Positions 33,299-64,000 of a stretch of DNA of 64,000 nucleotides are shown piece by piece. Positions within the stretch are counted from its first letter, which is position 1; each line of letters begins with the position of its first letter. Origin of the DNA: Climacium dendroides (Eukaryota; Streptophyta; Bryopsida; Hypnales; Climaciaceae); the NCBI GenBank assembly GCA_950106755.1, contig OX467089.1, positions 23,479,345-23,543,344 of the forward strand. The letters are read 5' to 3'. The notes below the pieces were generated by a model. The model was not told where the DNA came from. It saw only the letters and a program-made list of their open reading frames with translations, and made no database searches. A program made the translations under genes and the position numbers.

Positions 33299-33319
33299 CA
33301 GGGTTGTACGGACGCTGGG

Positions 33320-35694: not shown

Positions 35695-35699
35695 ACCAT

Positions 35700-38160: not shown

Positions 38161-38189
38161 CCGAATGGCAGATGACCTCTTAATCATTT

Positions 38190-39835: not shown

Positions 39836-39960
39836 GGCGGCGCCGGGGGGGCTCCGTGCGGGGCTCCCCGCCGCGGCACAGGGGCTCCCCGCCCTTGTGT
39901 GGGGGCTCCGTGCAAGGGTGCCGGGGTTCCCCGCTTGGGCGTGGGAGTCCTTGCCGCCTC
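39836..39960. repeat. GC-rich minisatellite, right part
   Basis: Continues the GGGGCTCCCCGCGGCA-type array of 33,180-33,298 after the hAT-like insertion and its second GGCGGCGC copy. Units drift towards GGGGGCTCCGTGCAAGG. Confidence 0.85.
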
Positions 39961-40242
39961 CACACTTCGCCTCGACGCTCCCACGCTCCACCTCCGCACG
40001 TTGTTCCTCCACCTTCAAACAAGAGATGCATCAACAAGAGAACAAAGATAATCCCAATGTCAAGCCTAAACTCCCCAACGCTCCTAGTGATGTTCAGTTA
40101 GACATCAGTTGAAGCCTCAGTGTGTTACGGATGGAAAATATGGATGAAACCCTAATCTGCCAACACAATTCAATGACGCCAATTTTAATTCCTAGAATTG
40201 ACGGGAGCTGTTGGAGGCCATGACGGAGGCTTGCGGGGCAGA

Positions 40243-40279
40243 GAGGGGAGGGGAGGGGAGGGGAGGGGAGGGGAGGGGA
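40243..40279 (+). repeat. GGGGA tandem repeat, G-quadruplex candidate
   Basis: Seven consecutive GGGGA units on the plus strand followed by purine-only sequence to about 40,320. Four or more closely spaced G4 runs meet the usual sequence rule for a quadruplex. It lies between the two divergent CACTA genes. Confidence 0.9.
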
Positions 40280-40837
40280 AGAGAGGAGGGAGAGGAGGAA
40301 GCGAAGGAGGGAGGAAGTTGTCTACACGGTGCTTGGTCTTGTTTAGGCGCCTGCTGCGACGGGGGCTTCCATCTACTACAGCTACTGATTTTTCCATCCC
40401 TGAGGTGAGTGCAGCAGCAACAATGCTGTCCACAAACTGGTGAAACATGCTCTACTCCTTAGAAGTTTGCAAATTCAAGTGTAGGTGAAGGAAGAAGAGC
40501 GGTTGCAGGAAGAGGAAGGCCGAATGTGGGCCTAGGGTTTGTCTAAGTCCCATGACGGAGCGACAGCCCCATGTGTGACGTCGGGTGCTGTACTTTTCAA
40601 GAGGGCCCTTAGGTCGGAAGTTGACATTCGTGTGCTTCAGCAGACATCACAATTGACATGTAGACATCAACTCAGACATCATGATGTCTGACTTGGTGTT
40701 AGTAACGATGCGTTTTTTGCCAATTTGAAATGGACAAGGGGATATGTTGCGATGATGTTTTGCATGACATCACAAATGACACTATCGTGTCCTAGTAGGC
40801 ATGATTGCGTCTCATTGCACATGTTCTCAGGAAATTC

Positions 40838-41230
40838 GAATTTGGCTTTGACCTTCCATTTTTATTCTCCAAGTGAATAATTAGAAGTTGTGAAATAGAA
40901 CTTGGCTTTGACCTTCTATTTTTATTCTCTAAGTGGGGTCTAAAGTAAAAGAATATCCTAGAGTTTGAATTAGGCTTCTTCAAAATAAAATTTGTGAAAT
41001 GGAACTTGGCTTTGACCTTCTATTTGTATTCCCTAAGTCATTTCTTTGAAGCTTCTTCAAAATACAAATTCTAAATTAGAACTTGCCTTTCACCTTTTAA
41101 TTTTTTTTTTGGCTCTAAGTCATTTCTTTGAGGCTCTACCAAATTAGAGCTTGAAAACTAGAAGCTTTAGAGTAGAACTTGGAATTCACCTTGTCTTTAT
41201 CTTTTCTACATCTTTTCTGGGGGACTTATT
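40838..41230. repeat. Degenerate ~85-bp tandem repeat
   Basis: The phrase AACTTGGCTTTGACCTTCTA followed by TTTTTATTCTCTAAGT recurs about four to five times with growing divergence. It is non-coding and lies in the spacer upstream of the TNPD-like gene. Confidence 0.8.
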
Positions 41231-42336
41231 GAAATGAAACTTGTAACCACTTTTTCTTCTTGGAAGTAACGAAGTCCCATCAATACAACTCATTCTTCTT
41301 CTGCTGTATTGTATGGCTATCCTCTACCTAGGTAGCTTCTAAATGATGCTAAATTAGCTTCTTCTAAGAAAATAGTGCCTATAATGTACTATAATTTCAA
41401 AGCGCAAACCTTACTGCCCTCCTTAGCCATGGAAACCACTGACTGCTTAGAGCTGCAGTCCTTAAAGTGCATGGGATGTAGTATTGCGTAGCTTAACCCA
41501 ATGCTTTTTCTGACCTACCTGTACAAGACTTAACGTCAAGCAAAACATGTCAATGTCCTTATGAATAAACTTATATAATATTCCGGTGCCTTCTAGGATG
41601 TTAGGCGTAGCACCCCATGTCAAACGTAGCACGTGTAGCAAATACCTTTTTATCTTCTATTCAGACGTGGTGATGTCACGTACAAGCCTGTGGGTGACAT
41701 TGTGGTATTCTTGTAGACATAAATGCGTCTTACTGGACATGATGCTGGACGCACCTAGGGCCTTTGGAAGTCAACTCCAGCACATTCACGTGTCCTACCT
41801 CTATTTGAGTTGATGCCTTGTAGTTAAAAGAAGAGAGTTACAAAGAGATTTCAAGGAATAGAAGCCACTTATCAATTACAATTTGCAAGAAGTAGGCGTT
41901 TGGGCGTCGGGTTTCATTGCTTGGCATTGCTTTTTTATCCCATTCTGAAGTACTAAGGAAATGAACCTCATTTGCAGTTTACGCTCATGTTCTTTGGAAA
42001 CAAGACCTAATATTTGTGGAAAATTTTCTTTCTTCCTCAGGACATATACATTTGGTTGCCACCAAAACAAATAATTCATAGACTGTGATGTTGGATGTTA
42101 TAGGTTCACAAGTCTACAGTACTGCACGAACTACTATCCACGATCTAAGAGATAGTGATGAACAGATAGGTGCAGTGGACATGACGGTGTCAAAGTAGAT
42201 GTCTACAGTGACAAACATATGTTCACAAAAACATCCAGATGTTCAAAATTGTCACTGGGTAATCAGAAGTGTTCCTTTTCAACCACCCTTGACTTCCTTC
42301 TGATTGTCTACTATATCTTTCTCTTCGTCTTTCCCA

Positions 42337-45300
42337 ATGCATGTTGTAGGAAACAAGTTTAATTACTTCAAGAGTGGACATTTCAAATTGCATGATATCA
42401 GCAAGTGCACGTACGTGTTGATGCCTGTGACGGACATGGAGGGCAGGCGTGGACATCGTGTTGTAAGAGTGCGCATTAATGCAAACGGCCGTGTCCTTCG
42501 CCACATTCCTATAGGTGACCTCATTCTACAAACCGAGTTGAGGGTGGCAACGTAGCTAAATTTGACGAGGTTTCCATGTCCATGCAAATATTGTCATGGA
42601 GGAAGACGCCGGACTATCCATGTGATTCGGAAGCATCATGGAGAGGTGGGACGGGATGTTTTTTTGACGAAGTCAATGATTGGGGGGACCCACCCAATGG
42701 ATACCCTCCTAATGGCATATGGGTGGAAGATCTTGTGTATGACGATGACATCGTTGAGAATGACGCAGACATAGTAGAGGAAGACATTCAGATGCAGGAT
42801 GTGAACGGAAGACCAGAATTAGGAGACACTGATGTCGGTGACGCTGCTAATGACGACGACGCTCCTTTAGATGTACAACACGACGTCCAAAGGCAAGTCA
42901 TGGAGGCCTTTGATCGTGGCGATGCATTGCATTCAAACACCTTGGCGTCTAACGGAGCGTCAGGTGCTGAAGCAGACGTTGACGTTGACACTATTGAAGA
43001 CATGCAGCGTTTATATGAGCACGCAACAACAGCACTGTACGAGGGGGCATCATCGAGTATTCTGTCAACAACAATCATCATCATAAATATGTGCGTGGTC
43101 TTCCGCGTGAGTAACCATTTCACTAGTGAGCTCCTATGGTATTTGTCATCAGACTTGCTCCCGAAGAACAACAAGCTCCCTACTAGTCATTATGAGGCAA
43201 GGAAAATGATTAAGAAGTTGGGCTTAGAGTACAACAACATCCATGTGTGCCCAGGTGGTTGTGTGCTATTCGAAGACGAGCATGCAAATCTAAGTACGTG
43301 CCCGAAGTGCTCTAAACCAAGGTGGGTGGAGTGAACGAACTCGGTACCAACAAGGGTCGTTCGACACTTTCCCTTGATCCCAAGACTTAAACGCATGTTT
43401 CGATCTTCGGAGATCGCTCAGATGCTGACGGGCTGGATGCGGCATGTCAGCGATGACAGCATCATGCGGTCAGTGGTGGATAGCCCTGCTTGGAAGCATG
43501 TCAGCGTGGACGTCCACTTTGACAACTTCAGTACTGACGACAGGAACCTGCGTCTGGCACTAGCACTGGATGGTGTCAATCCCTTCAAGCTGAGCAACAC
43601 GAATTGGTTGACATGGCTGGTGCTCATTTTGATTTACAATTTTGAGCCATGGTTTGTGACGAAGAAATTCTTCATCTCCCTTAGCCTTCTCATTTCTGGG
43701 AAGCAGTCCCCAACTTCTAAGAACATGGATGTGTTCTTGCGACCATTGTTGAAGGAGCTATATACATTGTGGGAAGGTGTGGTGGCTCAAGATTTCTCAC
43801 AGCCCAAAGGTGCTCGTCACTTTATCATGCGTGGCTTACTAATGTGGACCATATTCAATTTTCCTGCGTATGCTCTGATCTCTGGCTTGTCTTGCAAGGG
43901 ATATAAAGGATGCCCGGATTGTGGTCTTGAGACAGATTCTCGACTTGCAAGAACCGGCGATGTGAGGACGGATCGAAGTACCAGAGGGTCCAAGATTGTG
44001 TATGGGGGCATACGAAGGTACTTAAGTCGACACCATCCTTATCGTCGAAATCGTCGCTTCAATGGAAAAGTAGAGCATCGCTTCAGGCCAAAGGGCATGA
44101 CTGAAGATGTTATCCGATATGTTGCGTGGCGGCAAGCGTTTCTAGATCTGGGTGGAAGAGAAGATGGAAAGGATGACCCAGTGCATTTCACAAGGGTGAA
44201 ACGCTTGAGTGCATTGTTTGAGCTGCCCTACTGGAAGGTACAAAGTGGTCTAACCTGACTTTGACATGTAGGTAGTGTCCAATGTCTGAGTGGTACGTCC
44301 TCTCTGACGTTCTGTGTTATAGTACTGGCGCGTTGATGTCCAAGTAGATGTCATAGAAGACATCCCGCTGTACAAATTGCAATAGCTGTAGACAGTGGCC
44401 GCCTATTTAGCCGTGCAATGTGAACATCTCATGTTGTGTTACATGTCCCTTTAGACGTAGTCGTGAATACAAAGTGAAGGCTGAATGTCGTTGTACATTT
44501 TCTTAGTAGACAACACGGGAAGTGACGATACACATTTTTTCGGAGGGCAGAGCATACTTAAGATTTACGTGTGTTCCCTTCTACAGTATCTGTTGATCCA
44601 ACACATTTTGGATGTGATGCATTGCGAGAAAAACTTATGCGAGAACATGGTGAAGACCCTTCTTGCTATGAACGATAGTCCTGGCAACCGCATTGATGCA
44701 CAACAGCTTGGAATACGTAGAGAAATTTGGCTTCAAGACCCACGAAGACACCAAGACGATTTCTACATGCCAAATGCGTCGTATGCAATGACAGTAGATG
44801 AGCACAGGGAGTTCGTGGATATAGTGTCAAGTATTCGTACCCCAACAAACTATGTTGGTACAATTCATAAACATCTACAGAATGGAACGCTACAATATAT
44901 GAAGACGCATGATTATCACATTCTCATGCAGCAGGTGAGGTTGCCATGGGATGTGACACAAGGGTTCGTTGAACTTATCCAAGGAAGGGAGGGAGTTCAG
45001 AGATTGTCACTGCTCCAGAACCATTGTGGACATCATATGTCTTTAGTAACGTTGTTGAAGGCAGTAGTATGTTAATGATAGTGCACGGGAAGACGTCTTC
45101 ATAAACATGATAGTGTTTCATTTGGCTGTGATGCGTTTTCTAGTAGTCTGTCATATTCAGCACAAAGACGTTGTAGTGGATGTCCAAAATTAATGTCCGG
45201 GTGACCCTCATGCAAGTTACAGGGAAATGTGTTAAAAATGTAGCAGTGGGAGAGTGACTTACAGAGATGTTGTTCATGTGTAGATTGTACCGGTGTCTGT

Positions 45301-46982
45301 CCGGAACATCTTGGATGAGAATGTGCGCTTGGCTATTATAAAAATGAGCAGGGTTTTCCAAAGACTTTGTGAGAAGGAGATCAAGGAAGCTGACAAAGAT
45401 GTCCTCATGCAGGATGTTATTATGGCAACCTGCCTCATAGAGAAGGAGTTCCCCACGACATTCTTGAATATAATGACCCATTTTCCAGTGCACCTTGTTG
45501 AACAGTTATTTGTATGTGGCCCAGTGCATTGTAGGTGGATGTACCCCATTGAGCGATACATGAAGACTTTGAAGGATTATGTGCGGACTTTGGTGCATCC
45601 AAAAGGTAGCATAGCAGAGGGATATCGCATTGAAGACACGCTTGGCTTCTGCACGGAATACATGAGACAATTTCAAGGGACTAGTGAGCGTGTTTGGGAT
45701 GTAGACGAAGATCCCATCATGAATGACGAGGTGATACGTAGCAGGAAACCAAAAGAGAGGGCATTATCCGACACTTTGCGAGCATATGCACATGCGTTTG
45801 TAATTGACAATGCGCCATGCTTGGAAACTTGGCGAGAGTAAGTAACTGGCACTGCTTTCCAGTGCCACTTTGGACATCACGTTGCCTTATATACACTCCT
45901 AGCAGACGTCATATCCGATGCTGGCGCATTCAATGATGTCATGTAGGAAGACGCATTGATGTTTGTTTTGGCCCCAATGTGGACATCTCAGTAGAAGAGG
46001 GAACCCTCAACACACGATCGTTGTTAAGGACTACTTGAATTCTTGCACACCTTTGCAGATGTGCCATGCACACTGTACTTGGCCTCGGCATACATGATGT
46101 CAAATCTTCAATCCGTTGTCCTAATTTCATTATTGCTGAGTGTGATGTAGGGACTACACTACAGCAAAGTCCCAAAGATGGGAGCGGGAAGCTTTTCGTG
46201 TTGCATGGCGGCGCTCAAATCCAGAAAGAGCTGTCCGTTATCCAGTTGAACTAAGTGAGTTTCCATCCTTCGCGCAATGGCTGACGTTAACGGTGACGGA
46301 GGCTGATCATTTTGGACGTCCAGTGGATGAAGACATCAGACATTATGCGCAGCTTCCTGAGCGAAAGGCAACATCCCACCGTCAAATGTACTGTCATGGC
46401 ATGCACCTCTGTGTCCGAAGCTCTGAACGTGGGCTTGTTATCTGTGACTCTGGAGTAGTAGCGAGTTTCACATGCCAGCTTCATTGGGGTTTGCAAAATG
46501 GGAGGCCACTGGAATCCACGCAGGAGTATGTGGGGTACATTGAAGAGATTTTAGTATTGGATTATCGAAATCATTGCATCACAGTGTTGTTGTGTGATTG
46601 GGTGAGGGGCACACAAGGTAGTCGAGCTCCTAGTGTGCAACAGGATAAGTATGGCTTCACGTTGGCAAACTTCAACCATTTGGATGGAACGGTCCATGCA
46701 GATTCATTTGCCTTTCCTTTGCATTGCCAACAGGTATTCTTCTCCGACGATCCACATCGGCCTGGTTGGAAAGTAGTTTGCCGAACTGAGGTGAGGGGTA
46801 GACGTGGCTCATTGCACCCTCTAATGACAACCCCGAACATGGTGCAGTTGGTGAATGATAGGGACTTCGATGGACTACAACCAGTGCAACAAGTCGTGGA
46901 CCCGGTGCGCCAACCCATAGACCATGGTGGCGAGTATGTTGCCATAGTTAGCGATGACATCGCATCTGAGGAAGAAGCATAG
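42337..46982 (+). pseudogene. TNPD-like CACTA transposase, 4 exons, two stops and one frameshift
   Basis: Exons are about 42,337-44,237, 44,587-44,934, 45,284-45,837 and 46,151-46,982. The last three GT/AG junctions keep phase exactly. An N-terminal piece is followed by a transposase-associated cysteine motif (FPCPCKYCHGG, near 42,574). The Transposase_21/TNP2 core (43,100-44,900) includes KLGLEYNNIHVCPGGC, FPLIPRLKRMF, LSCKGYKGCPDCG and, across the first intron, LPYWK then HILDVMHCEKNL. Exon 3 is DUF4218 (WMYPIERYMKTLKDYVRTL, GSIAEGYRIED). Exon 4 is DUF4216 (NHCITVLLCDWV, YGFTLANFN, QVFFSDDP). Damage: TAG at 42,553, a shift near a run of six G at about 42,683, and TGA at 43,332. It would cut and join the CACTA ends in the nucleus. 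Confidence 0.93.
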
Positions 46983-46989
46983 GGTGTTC

Positions 46990-48031
46990 ACATCATTGAC
47001 ATGTGTATGCTGTGATAGCATTTAGACGTCACATAGGACGTCTGCGAAATACAAGAACATCAACATGTTCATGTCTTCCAAGTATTCTTGATGCATCTTG
47101 AACATGCATTTTGTGACAGAATCTGTCTACTTCGGTAATGCACGTGACATCATAAGAGTAGGTTGCAATCTTATCCTAATGAAGTTTGAAGAACGTGCAC
47201 AAGTTGTATGACTTGAAGAGCCCAGAAATGCCCCTGATCTAAGTAAACACATAAGTTTGCCTGTACTACATAGGAAGGATGTGCATCATGTACAAATTCA
47301 CCCTTTTTCATAAAATAATGTCATGCATCTGGAGTTATTTTTGACATCAAAGTGGACGCCTACAATTGCTTCCACAACGCCCACACGTCCAGTCAGATGT
47401 AATGAAACGCACCGTGAATAGCATGTGGTTTGAAGTTACAGTCGTAAGAAGTACAAAATGTTAACGCTAGAAGTGATGTCAATGTAGACGTCAGAACGTC
47501 AGATGTGATGTCCACAGAGACATCCGAGGTCGGAACATGGACTGGTTATAGATGCTGACGTGGCATGCCACGTCATCATCCTTGTCCACGTCATACAATA
47601 TCCACGTCATCATGCCATGTCACACAGTAGCCATGTCATCTCGCCACATCAAATGCCACATAAGCTTTTAGGAGTCACAACCTGCCTATTGTCCTCTTTT
47701 TAGCCTTGGGCAGTCACTTTACCTCTGACTACACCAAAATTCTATTTGAACTTGTGAGGTATGTTTGACCAAAGATGATGACGTAGCTAAACATGTTATT
47801 GTGGACATCCTGGAAAACATCTAATGTCCACTTGGATGCCTTACATTGCATGGACATTTTTTGTAGCATCAACATGCTGTGACTGCAATCTAGCAATGCT
47901 AACACAGACATCATCACAAAATCTCCACTTTCTCGACCTGACACCCTGACGTCTTGTGCAACGTATCATGTCTACGCGGATATACGTCGTTTTTGGCTGG
48001 ATGTCCAGGCGGACACCGTTTTCTTATAGTG
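46990..48031. repeat. Right subterminal repeat region of the CACTA element
   Basis: GACATC/GATGTC and GACGTC words, together with CCACGTCAT-type units (47,560-47,660), recur up to the right terminus. This mirrors the left end. Confidence 0.85.
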
Positions 48032-49789: not shown

Positions 49790-50436
49790 CGATGATGCTT
49801 AGCCTACAGACATTCCTCCGCATTCTGAAGTGGACCCTACCAGAAAGGAGGGCGCTAGCATATCCTCCCCTATACCATCAAGGGCAGACGGTGCTGCAGG
49901 TGGGATTCCGGAATCGACCAACGCGGCATCTATTCTTCTGACATGTTCAGCTCCTACTGTTGTTTTTTCTCCCACGGCCCCTTCGAGTGCGTCTTTGGCC
50001 AAGGACCCAGTTCGCACTCCTCGTCTTCATGAGCAAATGGAGTCGGAGCAACATACTGATGTATCGGGAGATCTCCCGGTGCCTCTAACCGAAGATGTCA
50101 CCCCTCCCACGGAAATGGCCAAAAGTGTAATGGAAGACACAATGGCAGACCTCCTTTGAATGAGTCCGAAGCTCAATCCAATGGTACCTGTCCCACATCC
50201 TGGACTCACACATGCAGACAGACTTGCCATAAGGAATGGGTTTGGAGATCTACTTGACTTGCCCAATTATCATGCTAGTATGACGCCTGATCCGCGAAGG
50301 TAATCCTCGCAAATGATCCAGGCCATGTGGGCGGCCAACTTATATCTTTATAATGACATTGTTCAAATTTTCTCTAACCCTAAACCGGTGGAAGCAAAGG
50401 AAACGGGCGTAGGACATGGGACTCATTTGCCGATGG
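49790..50436 (+). pseudogene. Host-repeat coding region, proline/serine-rich
   Basis: One frame runs from about 49,790 to 50,446 with stops near 50,157 and 50,300. It begins with a low-complexity serine, proline and alanine stretch (SAPTVVFSPTAPSSAS). It then becomes globular-looking (HPGLTHADRLAIRNGFGDLL, MWAANLYLYNDIVQIF). The frame is cut in mid-exon by the 9.7-kb element and resumes at 60,126. The palindrome CGGGAGATCTCCCG lies in the coding sequence at about 50,066. No domain was recognised. Confidence 0.6.
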
Positions 50437-50462
50437 GGGTCGTAGACAGGGTTGCTAAAGTA

Positions 50463-50528
50463 TGAGCAAGGAGCGATGAGCGTTGAGCGTTGAGCAATGA
50501 GCAATAAGTGTTGAGCATTGAGAATTTT
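50463..50528. repeat. Left subterminal heptamer array
   Basis: About nine units of 7 bp (GAGCAAT, GAGCGTT, GAGCGAT and variants) in strict register inside the left terminus of the 9.7-kb element. The right end carries the inverted counterpart at 60,050-60,105 (GTTGCTC units). Probable transposase-binding sites. Confidence 0.9.
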
Positions 50529-52244
50529 TTGAAAAATTTGTGGAAAACCTATAATTTTTTACCATAAGGGTTTTGGGTCTATGGTTTATTATAAAAGCAG
50601 AAAACTATAGATGCACTTAAAGAGGATGAATGGAGATGTATGGAGATGAATGGAGATGAACAAAGTTGGATGAATTATTTTTTAGTTGACTTTATTGAAT
50701 GAAATACATTTGTTCATGACATTGGATGAAATGAGTTTGGATGATTAATCAATGATTTGAACTATAAAATCATTTATTTTAGATAAATGTCATTTATCAA
50801 GTATTTTAAATCCAAGGTTTAAGTGGGATTTTTTAAGCTAAGGACCTATGCTTATATGATATTCTAAAACCATTTTAGGGTGAAGATACCATTTCTAATT
50901 AAAATTCACAATTCTTTTCAAGCATTTGTAAAGTTCACCAAATTTATTTTTATGCTAACACCAACATTTACTATTTCTAATTACATGTTTTCATCAAAGA
51001 GAAGTACCATGTTGCTAATAGAAAGAAATAGATTCAATCCAAAAAAAATTCTACTAATTGACAATAGTAACCATTATCTCTTGAAGTAGATGCCCTTTTC
51101 ACTACCACTTTAAAGATCACCAAAATGCAAAATAACTTAAGAATATGGTAAAGTGCAAGAATGTAGTGGCCTTTTTAGTCTCACTACATGACATTAGAAA
51201 ATCAAGTAATAACAATAGTCTTTAGAACAAAATCAATTTAATCCAATGCCACATATGGGAGAAGAATGATCACTAGCTTCACTATTATCACTATATGTAA
51301 GTCTTGGTGTCTCAACATTTGCTTCAAGGTCTAAAAACTTCTTGACAACAATATTGTATGAACGATGTTTGGCAATAAAAATGGGTGATGGAGCCTCTGC
51401 CATAGATGTCGCTAGAGTCTTGATGTAACATGACAAACTCTTTGGACTAGGAGAAGGCGAGAGCACCAAATGCTTGAGAAGATTGCCTCTACAAGATGCA
51501 ATGATTAAATAATTAGAAACTTTGAATAAATTAAAAGACATTGCACAATAAAAGAAAATAAACACATGCCTAAAAGCATCAACAAGCTTACTTACAGCAA
51601 CGTCTTTTTCGAGGCCTTGTAGAAGGCTTGACAATGTCATCGTCATCAAAATCATTCAACACTATAGGCAAAAGCCGCTTAGTTTAGACGGTGGCAGTAG
51701 AAGTAGGAAGGATGGTCAAAGGTTGAAGAAGACCTTCAAAAATCTCACTATCGTTCTCCAAGGCCACCAAATGACGTCCACTGTTGCAGCATGCATGGAT
51801 AGAGGCCCCTGTTTATTGAATGCAATGTCATCAGTTGCACCAAATATGTTACATACAATGTAAAAATTATATGGTTTCAATAATAAAAAGTAATGACTAA
51901 TGAAAGGTACCTGTAGATGCAAAACAATCCAATACCACATCACCAGGTTTTGAAAATGCCTCGATTAATAGTTGTACAAATAGAGGATCTTTCTCACGGG
52001 CACCTCTCCACGGAATTGTACCATTCATAAGCTAAGTCTGCAAGGAGGTATAGTTGTGGAGAAGGTCAACTTCTTCAAGGTTTGTACCTGCATCACTAAG
52101 TTGTTGGTTTATAGTGATAGAAAATTTGAATTCCACCGATGTTTCCTCCCATTGTCTTCGTACAAATAAGAGGATCCGAAAGCGTTGTGACTGCAAGGGA
52201 TAAACAAGTATGACAATTAGTATTTGACAAATACAATTTTACTA

Positions 52245-52553
52245 GTACTATACCAAAATGTGGTAAAACGACCCACAGTCAAAATTCATTGTAGTTTTTT
52301 TCCCCACAATGTTGTACATGTTGTTGACTATTGCTGCAACTTTTTTTTTTCATTTTCTAACTCAATTTTTGGAATTTGATGACATGTAATATACCATTGG
52401 AAAGGTATTACATGCTATGAAATTCCAAAAATTCAATTCAAAAATTGAAAAGGAAGGCTGCAGCTGTAGTTAACAGCATGTACAGCATTGTGGAGAAAAG
52501 AACCACAGTGAATTTTGACTGCGTTTCCTTCTTACCACACTTTGGTATGGTAC
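52245..52553. mobile_element. 309-bp MITE in a methyltransferase intron
   Basis: Ends GTACTATACCAAAATGTGG and (reversed) GTACCATACCAAAGTGTGG form the terminal inverted repeat. The pairing extends inwards through TTGACTGTGG/CACAGTCAA and AATTTTTGGAATTT-type arms. It lies in the intron between exons 7 and 8. Half of the same MITE is present at the same place in the second gene copy (63,585-63,745), so it entered before the copies separated. Confidence 0.85.
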
Positions 52554-54409
52554 AACTATAAGATAATAATCAAAATATTTATAAACTTGTAAAATGTAAA
52601 ATTTTTGAAAAAAAAAATTAATTATATACCTCAACCTAAAATGAGGCCTTATAGGGCCAAGTCTCTAAGGTCATTGTGTTGAAACCGACGGCGGGGAATT
52701 TGAAACCCTCCCTAGAAGTCTCACTTGAATTCCACCACCGAAGCCAACGAATCTTGTGGTTTGGTTGAACTTGGCATGTAGAAATCCTTTGAAGTTTCTC
52801 CAAAGACATCTTAGGCTTCTTGTTGGCGTTGTAATACAAGTTAATCTGAAATTTGAAAAGACATAAGTACAGTAAAAATCAAGTCCAAAAATAATCATAT
52901 AAATAAATAAAAAGCAAATAGGCATAATAATATACCTCTTCTAAGAATTCAACGCCATTTTTTGGATTTGCAATGGCGGATTGTTTATCAAACTCCGTTC
53001 AAAATCCTTTGATAGTTGTAGTGGTGGCTTGAGTCATGGCTTCATGAACGCCCTTCGGAGTTCATTCTTCCAACCGTGTCTTCTCATAGTAAGTTCGTAC
53101 AGCCACATCTAAAACAATAGCAATTTCTTGCTGCACATGAAAAACATGAACTTGAAATCAGTATAAAATAAATTTTACAAATCACAACAATTGAATGAAA
53201 AAGTATTACAAACAAAAGATATTCACCAGATGAAGGAATTGTATGAAGATGGGAGATGTCAATGGATACCAAACACCTGGTAGCTTTCTGGCCTCACATT
53301 TCTTGTAATCTTCATCACTTAGAAGCCCCTTGAACTCTTCCAATTGCAAGTTGTCATAGGTACTCATTCTATGCAATTATTGAACCAAGTTGTTTTTGAC
53401 ATGGGAATGCTCTGTAGATCTGCAAATATCAATGAAAATAGAATGTAAGATGAATGAATGTGAAAGCATAGAATATTACAATACAATTGAAGAAGCGGTA
53501 AAATAAAATAAATATTGATTCAACAAACATTGGAACTCACCAATTAATGTCATTCATAGCCTCCAATAGAATGCATGTACGACCTTTGGACACCAATAAC
53601 ATATAATCAACAGGTAAATGCCACTTGCGGTCATGACGATACATTCTGTGGATGTAAGCATACCAAGTCACCAATCTGTGATTGCCATCCCATACAAAAA
53701 ATATGTGATTTGACAAGTGTGAGATGGTTGGTTGAGAACTCAACCAACACTCAAATTGGTCATTCTTGTGTATTCAGTGTTCATCCTACGTCTCTACGAT
53801 CTCAAGTGTCACTAACTTAGAAGCTCCCTTGTCATTTGTTGTTAACACGTAAAGTACACGATCACCTTGTCGATATCCATGAACAAACTCAGCCTCCAAT
53901 CGTTTCACTTGACTTTGGAGGAGAGGACAGACCAACGGAAGCCCAATCATCCTGCAGAAAGGAATATCAAATCGAGATCCTAAACGACCACCATTGAAGA
54001 GCATGCTGTTGATGATTGCATTGGAGTCCAATTTCTAACCATTTCGCACATTTACTTCCACCTCATCTATCGTTCGCCCTTCAAAAACTTGATCAACACT
54101 TTGAATATCAATGGTGCTGTTAACCTACAATCAATAGAAAATTGAACTCAAGTTATAGTTAACATTAAGAAGTCATGGAAATGAAAACAAATATGACGAC
54201 AACTATAATACAAAATCAATCATAGAATTTATCATACAAAAATAAATAGAAATGCATCTAACCTGAGGATTGCCGACCACAAGCTAAGAATCATCATTGG
54301 TGACTAGCTCCAAGTGCTCCATTTGTGGAAGCCCTCCATCGATGTCCATAAAGCTCTGTTTTGAAAAAACAAGAATAAGTACTTTTTACATCTTTATTAA
54401 AAATCAGCC

Positions 54410-56640
54410 TAAGTAGTGATCATGTTAACGAGGTTACATTTTCAGCCCAAAGCAAGCATCGGGAAAATACATTTTGAACCTTAGACTTAAGTTTAGATTC
54501 TCTAAGTGAGTGTTTAGAATACATTAGTAGAAGTGACCTTGTTAACAAGGTCTGTTTTGCCAATGTATTTCAATAGTGTAAAGAAAGAACAATGAAGGCT
54601 AAAGTGAAAACTGAACTATGTAAGTGATCCCTAAAAAATCCGAAGAAAGAAGCCTCATCAACGAGGCTACTTTTTCCAATGTATTTCAGTAGTGAGAAGG
54701 CAAAGAAATGAAGCCTAAAGTGAAAACTGAATTCTCTTAGTAATCCCTTTAAACCCTGAAAAAATGACCTCATTGACGAGGTCACATTTTGCAATCCATT
54801 TCAGCAGTCTCTTAGAGAAAACTGAAGCCTAAAATTAGAATTGAACTGTCTTTGTCATCTCTCTAAACCCTTCGAAAAGTGATCCCATTAACAAGGTCAT
54901 ATTTTGCAATCCATTTCAGCAGTCTCTTAGAGAAAATGAAAGCCTAAAATGAAAACTAAACTATCTTTGTCACCTCTCTAAACCCTTGGAAAAGTGACCT
55001 CGTTAACGAGGTTACATTTTGCAATCCATTTCAGTAGTCTCTTAGAGAAAATGGAAGCCTAAAATGAAAACTAAACTATCTTTGTCACCTCTCTAAACCC
55101 TTGGAAAAGTTACTTTGTTAACGAGGTCACATTTTGCAATACATTTCAGTAGTCTCTTAAAAAAAATTGAAGCCTAAAATGAAAATTAAACTATCTTTAA
55201 CACCTCTCTAAACCCTTGGAAAAGTGACCTTGTTAATAAAGTCACATTTTGCAATCTATTTCAACAATCTCTTAGAGAAAACTGAAGCCTAAAATGAAAA
55301 CTAAACTATTTTTGTCACCTCTCTAAACCCTTGGAAAAGTGACCTTGTTGACAAAGTCACATTTTGCAATCTAATTCAGTAAACCTTACGAGAAAAGCAA
55401 AATCTGAATCCTAAACTGAAATTGTCTTAGTAATTTTAGAAATCTCGGAAAAGTGACCTCGTTGACGAAGTCACATTTTGCAACACTACTGGAAAATGGT
55501 GTTCAAGTCAACAAAAATTTAATAAGTTTTTGTTGACTGCGATACTATATTGACCGTTTTAACAATTTTTTTTTTATTTGAACAAGCTAATAAAATGGGC
55601 ATTGAATTTTGGTTGCTTTAAATAGTACAACATCCACATCAACAAAAAAGTTAACACTTCTTTGTTAAGAAGACAACCTCTTACACACTAATGATGTAAG
55701 AGAGGTGATTTTGGTGACATAAGAGAAGAGAAGACAAGCTCTTTATACAAATGGAGTGATAAAAGGTCAAAACAAACCATATGGGATACATGAATCATTC
55801 ATAGTCTTAATTCACATATCCCATATGGTTTGTTTTATCTCCTACCACCCCATTTCTATAAAGAGATTGTCTCCTTTAACCTTCTATCACCAAAGTCACC
55901 TCTCCTCTATCACTAAATACTTAGTCCTATGAAACTTGTCTCCTAAATTATTTGTAAATTCTAGCTTTCTTGTAATTAAATTGTAAAGTCTAATTTTCTT
56001 CTAATTAAATTGTAAAGTTTAATTTTTGGTCATTTATATGTGTTATTTTTGGCCTACATGGCAGTTTGTACTGGGTTGGTTCTTGGCTTGGCACGTGGTA
56101 GTCATTCATTGAGCAAATTTAAAAATGAATTAATATTATTATTTTTCTGATTTGGCCACCATAACAAAATGGACAACAGTTTTTTGTTAGGTATTGTCCA
56201 AGACAACGCAATCACGGGTACAAACACCCTCAATACTTTTTTGTTAATTTTTTGTTGACATGGTCATTTTTTTTCTACTAGTGCAATCTAATTCAGCAAA
56301 CCTTACGAGAGAAAGCAAAATCTGAATCCTAAACTGAAATTATCTTAGTGATTTCAGAAATCTCAAAAAAGTGACCTCGTTGACAAGGTCACATTTTCCA
56401 ATCTAATTCAACAACCTGTAGAAAGAATTTGAAATTATGCATCAAAATTAGAAATTGTCTTCGTAAGATTGTAAAGAACTCAAGAATGTGATCTCGTCAA
56501 CGAGGTCACATTTCAAACCCTGAAATTGCAATCTTCTGAAAATCATACATCAAAACTGGAACCGTTTGAGTGATCTCTTAAATCCTTGAAAAAGTGACCT
56601 CGTCAACGAGGTCAAGTTTACAACCTGAAAAAGGGGTGTT
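54410..56640. repeat. ~114-bp minisatellite with a GACCTCGTTAACGAGGTC palindrome per unit
   Basis: About twelve head-to-tail units with starts near 54,763, 54,876, 54,989, 55,103, 55,219, 55,333 and 55,448, giving a period of 113-116 bp. Each unit opens with AAAGTGACCTCGTTAACGAG or a variant and then TTTTGCAATCCATTTCAG. Many palindrome changes are paired or conservative (GACGAAGTC, CAACGAGG). An 800-bp CACTA MITE splits one unit. The array sits in a single intron of the methyltransferase gene (exons 2-3). Confidence 0.93.
55484..56283. mobile_element. 800-bp CACTA MITE with a large internal foldback
   Basis: Starts CACTACTGGAAAATGGT and ends TCATTTTTTTTCTACTAGTG, with the 3-bp duplication CAA at 55,481-55,483 and 56,284-56,286. 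GTCAACAAAAA and TTTTTTGTTGAC extend the terminal repeat. The interior folds back around 55,795 (AAACAAACCATATGGGATA versus TATCCCATATGGTTTGTTT), pairing about 100 bases each side. Removing it restores the minisatellite phrase TTTTGCAATCTAATTCAG seen in the neighbouring unit at 55,363. Confidence 0.95.
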
Positions 56641-57801
56641 CAGAAATGGCACCTCTTGAGGATTTGTAGGAACTTGAACTTCCATCACATTGCTGCCTTT
56701 AATGGTGTCGGAGACACTCTCCCGACCGTCGCCGCGTGCCTCTCCATCCTTGTGTAGCATGCCACTCCGTAAGTTCATTTCGGAAGCAACCCTAAGCCAA
56801 AACACAGCAATGGAGAAGGAAGAGAACTACACCAAAGTAAGCCAAAGATCAGCCCATGGAATTGTTCTTTGGTCTCAAAAAAATGGTTTCAAGCAATGGA
56901 GAAGGAAGAGATGGGTAGATTTAGGCCAAGGGAATCTTTCTAATAAAATATGCGATTTCATAGATTTCTGGTCCAAATTTTTTGGAGCACATAGATTATA
57001 ACCTCAAAAGTAACCCCATTTTTTTTTCAGATTTTTTGAAGTTACAAGGAATTTTACAAAAATCGGCAAAGTCTTCTACAAATATTTGGGCAAGATTTGG
57101 CTGAAAAATCAGCCGATTCTGAAGATTTTAGAGAAGATTCCAAGATGCTGAATTAGTTTTTAGGCCGTAGAACATTCAAAAATGCTTCATTTTTTGCGTG
57201 CTATATACCGTTGGAATCGTCTTCTCAAAATACCTGAAATGAAGTTTGGTGTTAAATTCACCTTTAACAAAAAATATTCAATACATACAATTAACTCCTC
57301 ACAGTCTAATGGCTTCAGTCCTACCAATGAATACATAAACTTACCAACTTTGCGTTGATCACTAGGGACATGTTCTTCTTTAGCATACTCGGTTGGCATA
57401 CGTCCACTTCAGTTTCATCAATAGTGTCAAGCTTGGCAATATCCATTCCTTCACTATTTTGTGTCAAACTAAACTCGTGTTCAAAAGGTGCATTTTCAAT
57501 CCCATCATTCTCATGCGACAAGGTCCGAACAATGCTACTAATTTCACCACCATTGGATTTCTATAAGCGTCTAAACATCTTCAATCTTTCTAGCTGTTTT
57601 TTGCTAGAGAAGCGAAGTCCTGCCTTACGTCTCGTTCTATGAGAACCCTTCGGCATCCCTTCAACCAAAAAATCCAAGAAAGTGAATTAGACTTTCTCAT
57701 TAGCAATACCGCAATCTCTCCGATATATAGCACTCTTCAAGTCTAATGAATGTATTCTCATCCAATTCATTATAACTTCTCCAAATAAAACATCTACTAA
57801 C

Positions 57802-58018: not shown

Positions 58019-58959
58019 ATCTTTAAATATGGAGCCCTAAATCCTTTTAAGCTAAGTGGGGTACTTGAAACAAACTACAACCCTACTTTGTGGCACATTG
58101 CTAGATGCAAAAAGGAAGGAAAGACTTGTCATGGAGTTCAAGTTGGGATGAAGAAGAAATGTGGGGCCAAGATAAACAAGTCAAGTAAGAATAGAACAGC
58201 AGCACCTACCTACAACGGCCACATGACAGAATATGGAACCAAGGCCATCATCAACTTTGATTTTGGGTTTTGTGCAGATGACTTTATGCATTGTGCAGGA
58301 GGCTCTAAAATCAAGTGGGTTCATGACTGGCCTCCTTTGCCAAATGTATGGCCTATTGCATGTGGAACACATCTCACCAAATCAGAGATCCTTTCTCTAG
58401 AGGAAGCAGGATTTCAATTGCAAACTGAGGAACTAGACAAAGCAATGCTCTTATGCTCCATCTCTTTAATGAAGAGAGTACAGATGGAGGTGTATCTTTC
58501 CTTCATTCAAAACATCTAAATAGCAATTTTCAACCATCTGATGGTGATATGCACCCGATAAAGCGATTGGGTAGGACCATACAACGTAATCCTAATGCAT
58601 CGACAATTGACCATTGCAACAAATGGGAGACAGCACTGAACCTAAAAGCTGTCATTCAATCCGTAGTCGTTATTCCATATCTTGGCTATAGTAGAGTGAT
58701 AACTCTACTGTCCGGCATCTTTTCCAACCAGAAGGTCTATCGAGTCACAATTTCAGACTTTCTTGCTTGTACCTGTGAAGACTTCATCACCATGAGTACA
58801 ACTGCACTTGGTAGTAGGAAATCTTGGGTGAACTGCAAGCATTTATATTATGTCTTTAGGTTCATTTGCAAGGCAAATTCTGAGGACAATAAGTACATAC
58901 ATGTACCAAGTTTGAGCTTTGATGAGGTGAAGCTACTTCTTGTAGGTAGCAATCTATAA
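58019..58959 (+). pseudogene. SWIM zinc-finger gene of the 9.7-kb element, frameshifted once
   Basis: Open from 58,019 with no ATG in frame nearby, so a 5' exon may be missing. The first part (to about 58,450) contains CKKEGKTCHGVQVGMKKKCG and HDWPPLPNVWPIACGTHLT. The second part, in another frame, ends with a SWIM finger: CTCEDF, then NCKHLYYVFRF (CxC...CxH). The shift coincides with a near-duplicate 8-mer (ATGCTCTT at 58,445 and ATGCTCCA at 58,453); removing 8 bases restores the frame. SWIM fingers bind DNA or proteins and occur in Mutator-like transposases, but no DDE core is seen. It diverges from the methyltransferase gene and could be the transposase C-terminus or a captured host gene. 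Confidence 0.65.
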
Positions 58960-60049
58960 GATGTATATTCATCTTATAGTACTAGGTTGAAAAACTACTT
59001 TTGTTTAGAAGTAAATATAGAATGGCCCATTGAAGTAGTTGACATGTATGCTAAATCCTAATTAGTTTAAGGTGGAAATAGTTTGTAGCAGCTTACAAAC
59101 AACTAAAATGATTTGTAAAACCATAAACATAACAAAAATACATTAAGAAAAAGCTAAATTTAGCCAAAAAAACATTGCAGGAAGAAATGTTACAATTCTA
59201 CAAATGAATCTTGAAAATGCTACTACATTCTAAGGAGAACTTATTATAATGAAACAACATTATACAACTGATTGTTACATATCTCTAAATGAACCTTCTA
59301 AGAGTTTCTTAAAGTAGCCTCACCCATAATTGTTACTTTACCTATAACCATCACTTCCTTACATCTTGGAAAATCTTGGGGAGTAGGAAGATGTAATTGC
59401 AGGAATGTACTTCATCTAAAAATTTGACGTAAGTGGTGGTTTTAAGTCAATGTACAATTGGCTCTTTTAAAAATTCAAAACTTATTCATGTCCAAAAAAT
59501 AAATTTAAAAATGCATTGAAATTCTTTTTCTCTTCTAAGTACAATTCAATAATTTTTTGGATGTCTATTAATCAACAATATATCCCAAACCCCTTATTTT
59601 GACAATTATGGGTGCTTCTACCTTAGTTACAAAAAACACAACCAACCTCAGATTAGTTAACAAAGTTTTAAGATCAACAATGCAAACTTCAAAAAAATTA
59701 TAAATTATTATTTTTACAAGGAAAAAAGTTCATTTATTTTAAGACATATTACAAATATGTAAAGAAAAATTTGGGAGGATGGATGATGAATGGATGACAT
59801 GAATGAAGCTCATTCATTCATCAAATTTATGGTTGAAAAATCATCTACTTGTGGGAAATGCTAGTCTTCATTCATGCCCATTCATGCAACATTTGAATGT
59901 AAAATTCATTATTTTCAATAAAAAAAATTGCAATTTCTTGGATTTATTTTTTTATTTTTGGTTTCTAACATTTCTATATTTAGATCTGACAACCCTATTT
60001 ATTACTCTGACATGTCTATTTTTAGTAAAATTCTTCACAGTGAGCGCTC
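58960..60049. other. Non-coding right side of the 9.7-kb element
   Basis: AT-rich, with no gene recognised. Near 59,770-59,890, repeated GGATGAATGGATGA and CATTCATTCAT words echo GGATGAATGGAGATG words inside the left end (50,620-50,670), consistent with subterminal repeats. Confidence 0.55.
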
Positions 60050-60105
60050 AAATCTAATTGCTCGTTGCTCGTTGCTCAATGCTCGTTGCTCAACACTCAC
60101 ACTCT
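60050..60105. repeat. Right subterminal heptamer array
   Basis: Seven to eight units of GTTGCTC, AATGCTC and AACACTC in 7-bp register, the inverted counterpart of 50,463-50,528. Confidence 0.9.
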
Positions 60106-60125
60106 AGCACCGTTGGGGTCGTAGA

Positions 60126-60225
60126 CGTGGATGACATGATGCCTCAGAAGGACGTCCCGAAAGGTACTTGGGGTGACACCCTGCGTAGTTTAGGCCTTTC
60201 ATTGAAAGATCTAATTAAACGTTGA
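60126..60225 (+). pseudogene. Host-repeat coding region, continuation after the 9.7-kb insertion
   Basis: Continues in frame from the piece ending at 50,446 through a stretch including KGTWGDTLRSLGLSLKDLIK to a TGA at 60,223. The agreement of frame across a 9.7-kb gap shows that the region was one exon before the insertion. Confidence 0.7.
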
Positions 60226-60430
60226 AGTATCTATACAAACGTAGAGAGATAATCATCGGGAGATCTCCCGATGTTCTACGTAGTTCATTTTGTAGACCAC
60301 ATGTAGTTAAATGATCACACTTCTTGATGGACTCATCTCTGACTGGGCTATACTCTAATGTACTGCAAACTATGGCGGGCCGTCGACGACGCAACCGAAG
60401 ACATTGAAAAAGGTAGCTCACTACAAGTAC

Positions 60431-60961
60431 TTAGTAGTACTTGATTTCAATGGAGTTCTTCTTTACAGGTCCTATAGCCGTAATCAAGTCCATGTTGAGC
60501 GTTGTCCGAGGGTCTCCACGTTTCTAAATTGGGTGCGTGGTAGAGTGGAAGTTGCATTCTAGAGTAGTGTCACGCCAAAAAACATGGACTACTTGTAGGA
60601 CATTCTCCTTCAGAATTGCTCCTTCGGCCGTCGGGATGTCATCTGTCTAGCTCAAGGAGCATGCAGGAAGTCCATGTATAGGGACCCAACTGCATAAAAT
60701 AAACCATTCTTCCTGAAAGAGCTGTCAAAATTTGTGCGCATTGCTGGTTTATCTTCTTGGGACAATGTTCTTCTAATTGACGGCAATCTAGAAAAGAACC
60801 TCCTGAATGATCCACATAGCATTGTTTCCCTTAAGACCTTCTATGGGAAAACGCATGACAACTTCCTCCGCATGCAGTTGATACCATGGCTTGATGGCCT
60901 CCTATTGTCTAATGAGCCAGTGCTGTTGTATGTGAGGAATAATCTGCTTCCTAGCGGATAG
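60431..60961 (+). pseudogene. HAD/FCP1-type (NLI-interacting factor) phosphatase domain, three stops
   Basis: One frame of 177 codons. LVVLDFNGVLLYR at the start matches the DxDGxL nucleophile motif of HAD phosphatases, except that the second aspartate is asparagine. VEVAF, stop, SSVTPKNMDYL matches the V-x-x-W-T/S-s...n motif II region. NVLLIDGNLEKNLLNDPHS and IPWLDGLL match the acidic motif III and C-terminal end of FCP1/SCP-like domains. Stops are TAG, TAG and TAA; the first replaces the expected tryptophan. Real family members dephosphorylate the RNA polymerase II tail or other proteins. Here the domain sits in the host repeat next to CGGGAGATCTCCCG palindromes (60,257 and 61,049), so it looks like a transposon-captured gene. 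No activity is expected. Confidence 0.7.
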
Positions 60962-61519
60962 GATCCAATGGATCCCTTATCTAGTTTGGGCTTCAACATC
61001 ATGGCAGAAATTCAACATCGTTGATTCATGTTCTCGTGGAGCTTCATCGGGAGATCTCCCATCACTGGATACGGTGTTCCACGTAAGTGACATCACATGT
61101 ACACCGGAGTACGAGTTGTAATTTAAATTGTAAATGCACTTGTAAATGTCTAATAGCCCAAACATTATCAAATATGGATCATTAGTGAAGTGCTACTTCC
61201 CGGGAAATCATTGTAAATGCAAACTCCACATCTTTCTAAATGGTTTCACATGTACACCCACTGCGAATGGTATGTCAGTTTCTGTCCTTAGATTTTAGTG
61301 CCCTTTTGTTTCCAAGTTGAGGACTCGTGCGTGTAAGTCGTTCATCAATTGCTCTGTACATTTGTTTTACATATCAGTAAATAGTGGCCACAACATACAT
61401 TTTTTTGGTAGTTCACCTAAAACATATTGCAATTCCGAAATGCTGAGTGTGGACTGATTTTCTTTACGGCTTCGGAAATGCATTGGCTGCCTTCAATGTC
61501 TTTCAATATGTGATTGTTT

Positions 61520-61920
61520 TTCTACTGTATAGGGAGATCTCCAGTTGGCTGGGGGTTCTCCGTTACGTTGACTGCGTATGTCAACGTCATCGAGAGATCT
61601 CCCGTTGTGTAGAGGTTCTCCATGGAGTTGACTGTCCATTTTAACATCGGGGGAGTACGCATTGTTTAACGAATTTCCATTAAATAGATTGTCTATTTTG
61701 ACGTCATCGGGAGATCTGCCGTTGTTTAGAGGTTCTTTCTAAAGTGAGTGCCCTTTTCAAGCTCATCGCAAGATCTTACCCTTTTCCTGGTTCTCATTGA
61801 AGTGAGTGACCATTCTACATTCATCGGAAGATCTCCTGTTGTTTTGAGGTTCTCAGTGGAGTCAGTGTCCTTCGGAAAAACATTGGGACATCTCTCGGTG
61901 TTTAGGGATTGTCCACTGTT
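61520..61920. repeat. ~60-110-bp repeats each holding a CGGGAGATCTCCCG-type palindrome
   Basis: Six units, each with a version of CATCGGGAGATCTCCCGTTG followed by TTTAGAGGTTCTC and GGAGTGAGTGTCC-like words, near 61,530, 61,590, 61,705, 61,765, 61,823 and 61,885. Single palindromes of the same kind occur at 48,111, 50,066, 60,257, 61,049, 62,767, 62,880 and 63,000, all within host-repeat DNA and none inside the inserted elements. Confidence 0.85.
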
Positions 61921-61941
61921 TGATGAATTTACTTCCTCACT

Positions 61942-62448
61942 ATGTTCTCCGTACAGAAGGCAGTTCTCGTCGTCCTCACAGGTGCTTTATGCGTGGAGGG
62001 AGGTGTTTCGGATCTTCCTCAAATAGTCAACATTCCTTCTGATTTTCGTCACTTCCTTAGACAATTGGTTGAACAAACTAACTGTGGGTTGTGTTCCTCT
62101 ATGGATATATCTACTTTGGGGGAGCTTGCACGACGTCTACTACTGCGAAAGACTTTGAAGGGGTTCCTCTACTTTGCCGGTTTGTGCAACCCTAGTTAGA
62201 GTAATCCTTATCCAAACCGTGCTAGATTATTGAAGCGTATCTTAGGTAGCTCTAGAGAGTGCAGCATTCTTTGGAATCAAACTATTGTACTACTAGAGTT
62301 AGATCCTCTGAAGTGGCCACACGCTAATTTGATAGGTCCCTCCATATGCGTGAGGGATGATATAGATCTCTTAGAAGTAGAACCTCCGTGTTATGTACGG
62401 AAAGAGCTAGTTCACCCCTTCACGTGTCAGTCAAATTCACTAGTTTAG
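61942..62448 (+). pseudogene. Last coding piece of the host repeat, one stop
   Basis: A single frame of 168 codons ending at 62,448, broken only by TAG at 62,197. Stretches such as SMDISTLGELARRLLLRK, RILGSSRECSILWNQ and PSICVRDDIDLLEVEPP look like real protein. No domain was recognised. A possible acceptor lies at CTCCGTACAG (61,949-61,958), so the true start of the exon may be 61,959. It is the 3'-most coding sequence before non-coding DNA. Confidence 0.6.
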
Positions 62449-62731
62449 ATACTGTAGGAATTGCCTCACTTCTTTTTGTGGGCAACTACTTGTTACCTTC
62501 TTTATCAATATGAATAAAATGGGATGAACCCTTCCCTTTTAATAATTACTTTCAAGTTTCATTCAACTGTACTAACAGTTCCCTTGTAGAGTACAATGAA
62601 TGCAAAAATTACATTAGGAGACTTCCAGATACTAATTCTATGGGGACATACTAACAGGTCATTCCTTACTTAGTTCTTCTAACAATGTAAGTGAATAATA
62701 ACCGTTTTCATCGATTTATTACATCACTTGA

Positions 62732-62945
62732 GATCCCAATGTCTTAGATGTATACTACATTGACAAATCTCCCGATGATTCATCTCAATGTGTACAATTA
62801 AATGTTTAAATGTCTTTATTAGTTGTTAATATCTTCCTTTGTTCTTTCCCAATTTCTTGGATGTATACTACATCGACAAATCTCCCGATGATTCATCTCA
62901 ATGTGTACAAATAAATGTTTAAATGTCTTACTTGTTATCATTATT
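62732..62945. repeat. 113-bp tandem duplication with half-palindromes
   Basis: Two copies with GATGTATACTACAT, ACAAATCTCCCGATG and AAATGTTTAAATGTCTT, starting near 62,747 and 62,860. Each keeps the right half of the CGGGAGATCTCCCGATG motif, placing them in the same host repeat. Confidence 0.9.
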
Positions 62946-63584
62946 TGTTCTTTTCTTCCCACTTTCATAGGCATTGTGGTCTCCAAAACCAAAACAACGG
63001 GAGGTCTCTCAATGAAGTCTCCCTGGACAAAGTCTATAATTCCTCACAAAGTCCAAAAGTAGTTAAATATGGCATGTAGGGCACACTAGTACCGCCTTAA
63101 GGTAGGCTCTTTATGTGTTTGTTTGTTTTGTTTGTTACAATGAGATTTCTTACATCGGACGTCCCCAAGTCTTCTTTGGGGTATTGTCAAAAAGCTCTTT
63201 GTAAAGAAGAGAGCACGGGCTTTGTTTTATGGCATTTGGTCCTATGGTGTGAAAGATATTGAATTACAATAAGGTTAAGTTTTTATGAATTAAAAAACTA
63301 CTTTTATTTTGACTGTGGCAACAACATGAGGCACACTAGTGGCGGTTCAAAATGCGACTAGAAACCAGTGTCAATCAAAACCAGCCACAAATATCAGATT
63401 GACGGATATATTGCTAAAAGATGTTGTAGGTTCAAGAAAAGCAAAGGCAAGCCAAATTCAGACATAAAAATAAGTATTTTTTGGAATCTCTAAATGATTG
63501 TTTAAAATATTACAAGTGAAATGTCTAAAATGCTACAAAAAAATTTCATCCATATTGCCTAATTTTTTGAATATTTCAAAAAAA
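62946..63584. other. Non-coding DNA at the edge of the host repeat
   Basis: No gene was recognised. GGCACACTAGT occurs twice (63,083 and 63,333), followed by different sequence each time, which may mark ends of further CACTA-like elements. Direct evidence is weak. Confidence 0.5.
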
Positions 63585-64000
63585 TTTAATACCTTTCCAA
63601 TGGTATATTACATGCCTTCAAATTCCAAAAACTGAGTTAGAAAATGAAAAAAAAGGTTGTAGCAATAGTCAACAACATGTACAGTACTGTGGGGAAAAAA
63701 ACTGCAATGAATTTTGACTGTGGTTCTGTTTTCCACATTTTAGTATAGTGCTAGTAAAATTGTATTTGTCAAATACTAACTGTCATACTTGTTTATCCCT
63801 TGCAGTCACAGTGCTTTCGGATCCTCTTATTTGTACGAAGACAATGGGAAGAAATATCGGTGGAATCCAAATTTTCTATCACTATAAACCAACAACTTAG
63901 TGATGTAGGTACAAACCTTGAAGAAGTTGACCTTCTCCACAACTACACCTCTTTGCAGATTCAGCTCATGAATGGTACAATTCCGTACAGAGGTACCCGT
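63585..64000 (+). pseudogene. Second, inverted and truncated copy of the ParB/methyltransferase gene
   Basis: From about 63,585 the sequence matches the reverse complement of 52,410 down to about 51,965. It starts midway through the 309-bp intronic MITE, runs through the intron to the acceptor TTGCAG (63,800-63,805), then through exon 8 (63,806 to the window end). The 65 codons of exon 8 visible here are open. Where the first copy has TAG (52,032-52,034), this copy has CAG (63,962-63,964). The gene continues beyond the window. The breakpoint at the left lies inside the MITE, so this copy is truncated at its 5' side. Confidence 0.9.

Follow-up and report, generated by a model that had tools for sequence, protein, structure and literature searches.

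The 64-kb window of the Climacium dendroides genome analyzed here (contig OX467089.1, positions 23,479,345 to 23,543,344; 37% GC) contains what we interpret, with moderate confidence, as a decayed DNA transposon of the cut-and-paste type, about 9.7 kb long, in which an accessory gene for a ParB-like/beta-class amino-methyltransferase lies beside a divergent SWIM-like gene. That the gene has this identity and that it sits in a transposon are, taken jointly, very likely. The joined exons C–I (Table 1) matched one Pfam family, PF01555 (E 5.9e-7, 30.1 bits against a cut-off of 26.7, profile positions 167-217 of 221), as well as PHROG methyltransferase families (best E 2.1e-7), and their nearest PDB entries by sequence were M1.HpyAVI/DpnA (E 4.1e-4), RsrI (1.4e-3), CcrM (5.1e-3) and MboIIA (0.013). 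A hidden Markov model (HMM) of nine phage methyltransferases, holding no row from the window, was matched against the complete set of 1113 stop-to-stop frames in the window that reach 30 amino acids (aa) and gave only two matches at E up to 1: one at 52031-51900 in exon H (E 2.7e-5, profile 187-211) and one at 51812-51687 in exon I (E 3.4e-4, profile 209-235). Because these profile positions adjoin, the match continues across the intron between the two exons. Of the proteins in this HMM, five were chosen by their match to exons H–I and the other four via a ParB probe, so the E-values are somewhat flattered and the control is not fully independent.

In the PF01555, PDB, phage and HMM alignments motif X precedes motif I, which is the beta-class order, and the beta-class fold is recognizable; the order IV...X-I-II and the fold are also present in the relatives of the window protein, which include 23 protein clusters of the fern Adiantum. 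Judged by its sequence, the remnant is correctly classed as a DNA amino-methyltransferase, of the beta class that the initial annotation had assigned to it. HHalign comparison of the fern and phage methyltransferase halves gave 94.9% with the window row and 84.6% without it, and an HMM of 22 relatives, run over the window frames, gave an E of 6e-14 for 53773-53540, a weak 0.03 for exon G and 0.8-1 for three further frames. The PF01555 cut-off was reached by none of the 26 relatives (best E 0.084, P0020). A PDB search with the fern profile returned two irrelevant matches at E of about 1, a PHROGs search with the fern family nothing below 0.03, and single-protein searches of viral contigs with P0003 and of prokaryotic contigs with P0004 no match, while the fern family alignments prepared for a viral-contig search had no stretch conserved enough for a scan. 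Four of the Adiantum gene models (P0008, P0014, P0019 and P0021) also hold pieces resembling long terminal repeat (LTR) retrotransposons, recognized by eye and by weak, below-cut-off Pfam matches; the annotation may have run through into neighboring retrotransposons here, or a carrier of a second kind may be involved.

The gene is spliced, and its exons A and C to J could be placed between 57656 and 51233 on the minus strand. The exons and peptides of the initial annotation could all be located on this strand: WDGNHR lies at about 53.7 kb, and the exons at about 52190-51911 and 51806-51591 carry motif X 'NGTIPWRGAREKDPLFVQLLIEAFSK', motif I 'GDVVLDCFASTG' and motif II 'GRHLVALEND'. The exon blocks, whose provisional limits were set partly by eye, each have an AG upstream and a GT downstream at a distance of no more than a few bases. 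An intact reading of the gene does not hold, as the copy is a pseudogene with 11 in-frame stops over eight exons (A and C–I) in the frames used. The basic N-terminus attributed to the protein is present in exon A, but its reading frame does not continue into the block MNLRSG at 56778, the candidate for the following exon; the basic part may therefore be a separate piece rather than part of the same gene.

The transposon setting, also proposed at the outset, was confirmed independently by a flanking direct repeat, by inverted ends, and by three copies that share a terminus and have different flanks. With repeats built from fewer than three different letters and pairs lying too close to the window ends set aside, exact repeats of at least 11 bases form 561 pairs at a separation of 2-20 kb; of these, the GGGGTCGTAGAC pair ranks first for inverted ends, with a score of 48 against 34 for the next and a median of 15. 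The sequence GGGTCGTAGAC is present at just two places in the window. The 9.9 kb of DNA to the right of the window (L021) revealed two further copies, both confined to part of the 3' half of the element. Copy 2, which begins inside the window at 63561, is 93.6-93.8% identical to the window copy and carries a 4.4-kb insert (L021 752-5188), parts of which are similar to window 15.5-16.9 kb; copy 3 is 79% and 71% identical. All three copies end in CTTTAGCAACC[CT]TG and then diverge, the termini of copies 2 and 3 lying near L021 6310 and 9590, and this common terminus with different flanks beyond it confirms the end of the element. Exons H and I provide 161 codons for comparison, in which copies 1 and 3 have two stops each and copy 2 none. 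The ratios of nonsynonymous to synonymous substitution rates for the three copy pairs (0.51, 0.47 and 0.42, values that carry no significance figure) suggest, at the sequence level, some constraint before decay.

Alternatively, a host gene could simply have been overrun by repeats. The gene is spliced into about ten exons, its Adiantum relatives are annotated as ordinary hypothetical proteins, and a stretch of about 23 kb holds all three copies, which makes local duplication possible. However, the flanking direct repeat with inverted ends, the common terminus of copies with different flanks and the 23 Adiantum protein clusters all argue for cargo of a transposon, and we regard an overrun host gene as very improbable. 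The second gene of the element, in two frames, has a SWIM-like CxCx19CxH finger by eye and could be a transposase remnant; against the transposon interpretation, it gave no Pfam match and no transposase domain was identified. A duplication of 8-12 bp fits Mutator-like and hAT elements alike; the element may be Mutator-like, hAT or of another kind.

Table 1. Features of the methyltransferase element (positions within the 64-kb window)
Feature	Position	Strand	Remarks
Left flanking direct repeat	50436..50447		12 bp, GGGGTCGTAGAC; target-site duplication, exact length 8-12 bp uncertain
Left end	50448..50537		AGGGTTGCTAAAGTATGAG and GAGC-type subterminal repeats
Exon J	51234..51486	-	C-terminal tail, open (no stop)
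Exon I	51591..51806	-	Remainder of motif I and motif II; one stop; PF01555, phage HMM
Exon H	51911..52190	-	Motif X and first half of motif I; one stop; PF01555, PDB, phage HMM
Palindromic insert	52237..52561		325 bp, where the motif IV segment is missing; self-comparison, 78% inverted identity
Exon G	52632..52842	-	One stop; fern-protein homology ends here
Exon F	52935..53130	-	Middle region; two stops
Exon E	53228..53419	-	WYPLTSP...; one stop
Exon D	53541..54124	-	ParB-like segment with WDGNHR; three stops
Exon C	54263..54355	-	MDIDGGLPQMEHLELV...; one stop; boundaries by eye
Palindrome array	54412..56615	-	13 imperfect copies of 22-bp palindrome GTGACCTCGTTNACGAGGTCAC; intron or 5' region before exon C
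Nested CACTA-type insert	55484..56283		800 bp; splits palindrome array (918-bp gap); CAA duplicated
Exon A	57345..57656	-	Basic N-terminus MPKGSHRTRRKAGLRF...; one stop; donor GTAAGT; gene membership uncertain
Divergent second gene	58019..58959	+	Two frames; SWIM-like finger; possible transposase remnant
Right end	60018..60114		Imperfect inverted repeat of left end
Right flanking direct repeat	60115..60126		12 bp, second GGGGTCGTAGAC copy
Start of copy 2	63561..64000	+	Methyltransferase half, partial; continues in L021 beyond the window

The N-terminal half is quite probably ParB-like, though unproven. Exon D shares 34% identity over 120 aa with P0022 (tblastn E 2.3e-12 in the window), and the WDGNHR or WEGNHR motif of the ParB-like half lies in the order strand, helix, strand, insert, strand, GNHR, helix, strand, as read from the alignment and a poor predicted structure. 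ParB/Srx domains have a GxxR-type motif after a strand-helix-strand unit, an order that this half presumably fits. The corresponding part of an algal transposon protein is named ParB-like in the excerpted text of PMC12477816. Several results run counter to the assignment. The Pfam family ParB/Srx (PF02195) matched neither the window protein nor any of the 26 relatives, and HHalign of nine fern and window rows against eight phage ParB rows gave a non-significant 0.3%. The overall structure model, a weak point of the interpretation as a whole, is poor, with a mean predicted local distance difference test (pLDDT) score of 57.5. A tblastn search of phages with P0022 gave no match, and fold searches with the model of the ParB domain returned no ParB among the matches listed, although at a pLDDT of 49.6 that model is too poor for this to count against the assignment. 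Of the two profiles that the initial annotation had expected to recognize the joined exons, PF01555 thus scored above its cut-off and PF02195 found nothing; the ParB/sulfiredoxin-like motif itself is plausible from WDGNHR and the strand order, and unconfirmed by Pfam, HHalign and fold search.

The window copy contained no catalytic motif IV (D/N/S-PP-Y/W), the segment that should bear it being missing between exons G and H; by eye, the loss amounts to about 280 aa relative to P0001 and about 380 aa relative to P0003. We considered and rejected a motif IV concealed within this gap, because only about 440 bp remain there and 325 bp of these are the palindromic insert. Copies 2 and 3 begin at this insert, at window-equivalent 52433 and 52244, that is, after the motif IV segment, so neither holds it and it is absent from all three copies seen in this genome. 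An exon-by-exon scan of the 412.6-Mb assembly (123 contigs) with PF01555 at E 0.001 gave no match, and the identical scan gave matches in 11 of 14 control genomes; an intact copy in a single exon is thereby made less likely, whereas the result says nothing against one split by introns. The motif IV stretch is held by 12 of the 26 relatives (D-x-P-x search; the other 14 are without it by eye), in which it reads DLPF (five), DFPT (two), DVPF, DLPY, DFPY, DFPI and DFPP (one each). None is canonical, the second residue being L, V or F. The fourth residue is aromatic in eight; with no canonical site in any of the 12 and no aromatic residue in four, activity may have been lost in the family. The missing motif IV, the empty assembly scan and these fern sites weigh against our main interpretation.

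Alternatively, the fold may have been kept while the chemistry was lost, leaving a DNA-binding accessory factor that shields or recruits, for which the non-catalytic METTL14 and, likewise, VANC provide models. In addition to the non-canonical motif IV in all 12 relatives, with DFPT, DFPT, DFPP and DFPI in four, the window motif I reads FASTG where the consensus is FxGxG. On the other hand, NLPY and NIPY serve in rRNA adenine dimethylases, and two phage enzymes annotated as methyltransferases carry D[LI]PY. The phage records matching exons H–I numbered 72, of which 12 were fetched; motif IV was readable in 11 (the piece of the twelfth was too short) and was DPPY in eight, SPPY in one and of the D[LI]PY type in two, four of the DPPY enzymes being near relatives. 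Pseudomonas phage Orisa03 (ADLPYGKTQCAWD) and Escherichia phage JL22 (ADIPYGTTRCRWD) have a D[LI]PYGxT...WD motif IV, which the DLPFxxTQ...WD of the fern proteins P0001, P0002 and P0004 resembles, indicating that the fern site is motif IV and may work. A chemistry-less factor is unlikely in our view, if worth keeping in mind. The initial annotation had also named a lack of the tetrapeptide throughout the relatives as grounds for giving up the methyltransferase; read literally, this lack is what we found, but we do not count it as refuting, because of the aromatic fourth residue in eight of the 12 and the D[LI]PYGxT...WD of the two exon-matching phage methyltransferases.

None of the palindrome copies in the array is perfect, with 6 to 10 of 11 positions pairing, and they are spaced 106-117 bp apart (about 115 bp, near eleven helical turns) except for the gap made by the nested insert. 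In the six outer units the palindrome keeps 107/132 consensus positions (81%) against 292/542 (54%) outside it (Fisher 6e-9 with positions treated as independent), a contrast that holds in five of the six units singly. The array is named as a candidate target of the protein because VANC, encoded by Arabidopsis VANDAL elements, has target motifs that are likewise tandem repeats, located in introns and upstream non-coding DNA of the element genes (excerpted text of PMC5735166). It may instead be an ordinary intronic tandem repeat unrelated to the protein, a serious contender that falls only a little short of an even call. The six inner units show the reverse of the outer ones, with 112/132 (85%) in the palindrome and 514/563 (91%) in the flanks (p 0.03), one outer unit shares this lower conservation of the palindrome, and single palindromes are common, since 54 places in the window pair at at least 9/11 positions, eight of them within the array; these points weaken the case for a target. 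However, the outer units do keep the palindrome, and no copies of GTGACCTCGTTNACGAGGTCAC were found in the part of the window outside the element at the thresholds used. CpG decay could explain the inner reversal. The unit at 55474, one of the 13, was counted neither as outer nor as inner.

The protein of a working copy would bind repeats of its own element through its N-terminal half, ParB-like and helical, with the upstream palindrome array as the best candidate for these repeats, and the methyltransferase would put N6-methyladenine (6mA) or N4-methylcytosine (4mC) on the element DNA; the marks could then keep host silencing off or flag the ends for the transposase. Such self-marking or escape from silencing, which the initial annotation had likewise suggested, is a tentative proposal, with doubt still the stronger side, and the decayed copies here cannot carry it out now. 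A more elaborate version, in which the element encodes a partition-like methylation system whose ParB-like/methyltransferase recognizes the 22-bp palindrome array as a parS-like center and spreads 6mA or 4mC from it, seems improbable. It is also rather unlikely that RNA or host DNA, instead of the own element, is the substrate and that the transposon merely carries a captured gene as Pack-type cargo.

Beta-class enzymes (MboIIA, CcrM, M1.HpyAVI, RsrI and M.BceJIV) share the order IV...X-I-II and the fold with the relatives, whereas the relatives have D[LVF]P[FYIPT] instead of DPPY and extra N-terminal and helical parts, and the window copy is without motif IV. The phage fusions AcaML1, Javan447, NatCom_35866, Javan424 and Javan316 have a ParB-like part followed by a methyltransferase, as here, but by eye lack the helical middle region of about 200 aa, and the ParB halves do not align significantly (the 0.3% given above). 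Work on 4mC in Marchantia has reportedly been done. The initial annotation's view that such a gene would be new proved too strong, as the ParB-like/methyltransferase pairing is already in print for algal transposons: the excerpted text of PMC12477816 describes an accessory gene of Sola1-1_Ec32 in Ectocarpus with a ParB-like domain and a DNA methyltransferase predicted to perform N4C or N6A transfer. As far as that description goes, both genes have the two domains in this order, are borne by a DNA transposon and are transcribed opposite to the other gene; Sola1-1_Ec32 is a Sola-1 element of 21.5 kb with a protein of 1104 aa, while the element here measures 9.7 kb, has a 12-bp direct repeat and has fern relatives. 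The window protein is likened to the algal ones by this published description rather than by sequence, and three protein searches that need shared exact words returned no algal proteins. The proposed mechanism resembles VANC in its logic, VANC being a transposon protein whose targets are tandem motifs within the non-coding DNA of its element; the protein differs, and the excerpted text of PMC5735166 names no methyltransferase. The C5 cytosine methyltransferases captured by retrotransposons (excerpted text of PMC5890265) are also transposon-borne DNA methyltransferases, of another enzyme class and another element class. Among the entries listed by our literature search, no such gene was found in a land-plant transposon; it is apparently a known kind of accessory gene that is new for land plants.

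To the left of the element lies a likely CACTA-type element (28275-48031, about 19.8 kb, ends CACTATAAGAAAAC, 3-bp duplication not present) with a tnp2 transposase (PF02992, 2.7e-57) at 43335-44255 and DUF4218 at 45284-45838. Location of the methyltransferase gene inside this element was rejected, as the best ends enclosing tnp2 are 28275 and 48031, both left of the methyltransferase element. An inverted repeat pair (24877-26249 and 49766-48379; 1.4 kb, 68% identical) brackets the CACTA element and could represent the long inverted ends of a larger element. By eye, GGGAGATCTCCCGATG-like strings flank the methyltransferase element on both sides (50068; 60240-63000), so that it seems to have been inserted into one repeat-rich block. 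Just to its right is a broken gene for an NLI-interacting-factor-like phosphatase (PF03031, 2.6e-5) at 60359-60958. Rfam gave no matches on the window.

The finding extends a class of accessory proteins of algal transposons to a genome for which the nearest relatives found are in ferns. To our knowledge, it is an open question whether land-plant transposons write amino-group DNA methylation; it becomes testable now that Adiantum supplies named relatives that are more complete and the palindrome array supplies a concrete candidate for the target. If the partition-like version were true, the methylation would be an epigenetic mark written by a parasite in a chemistry that the host machinery does not read, preventing the element from being silenced.

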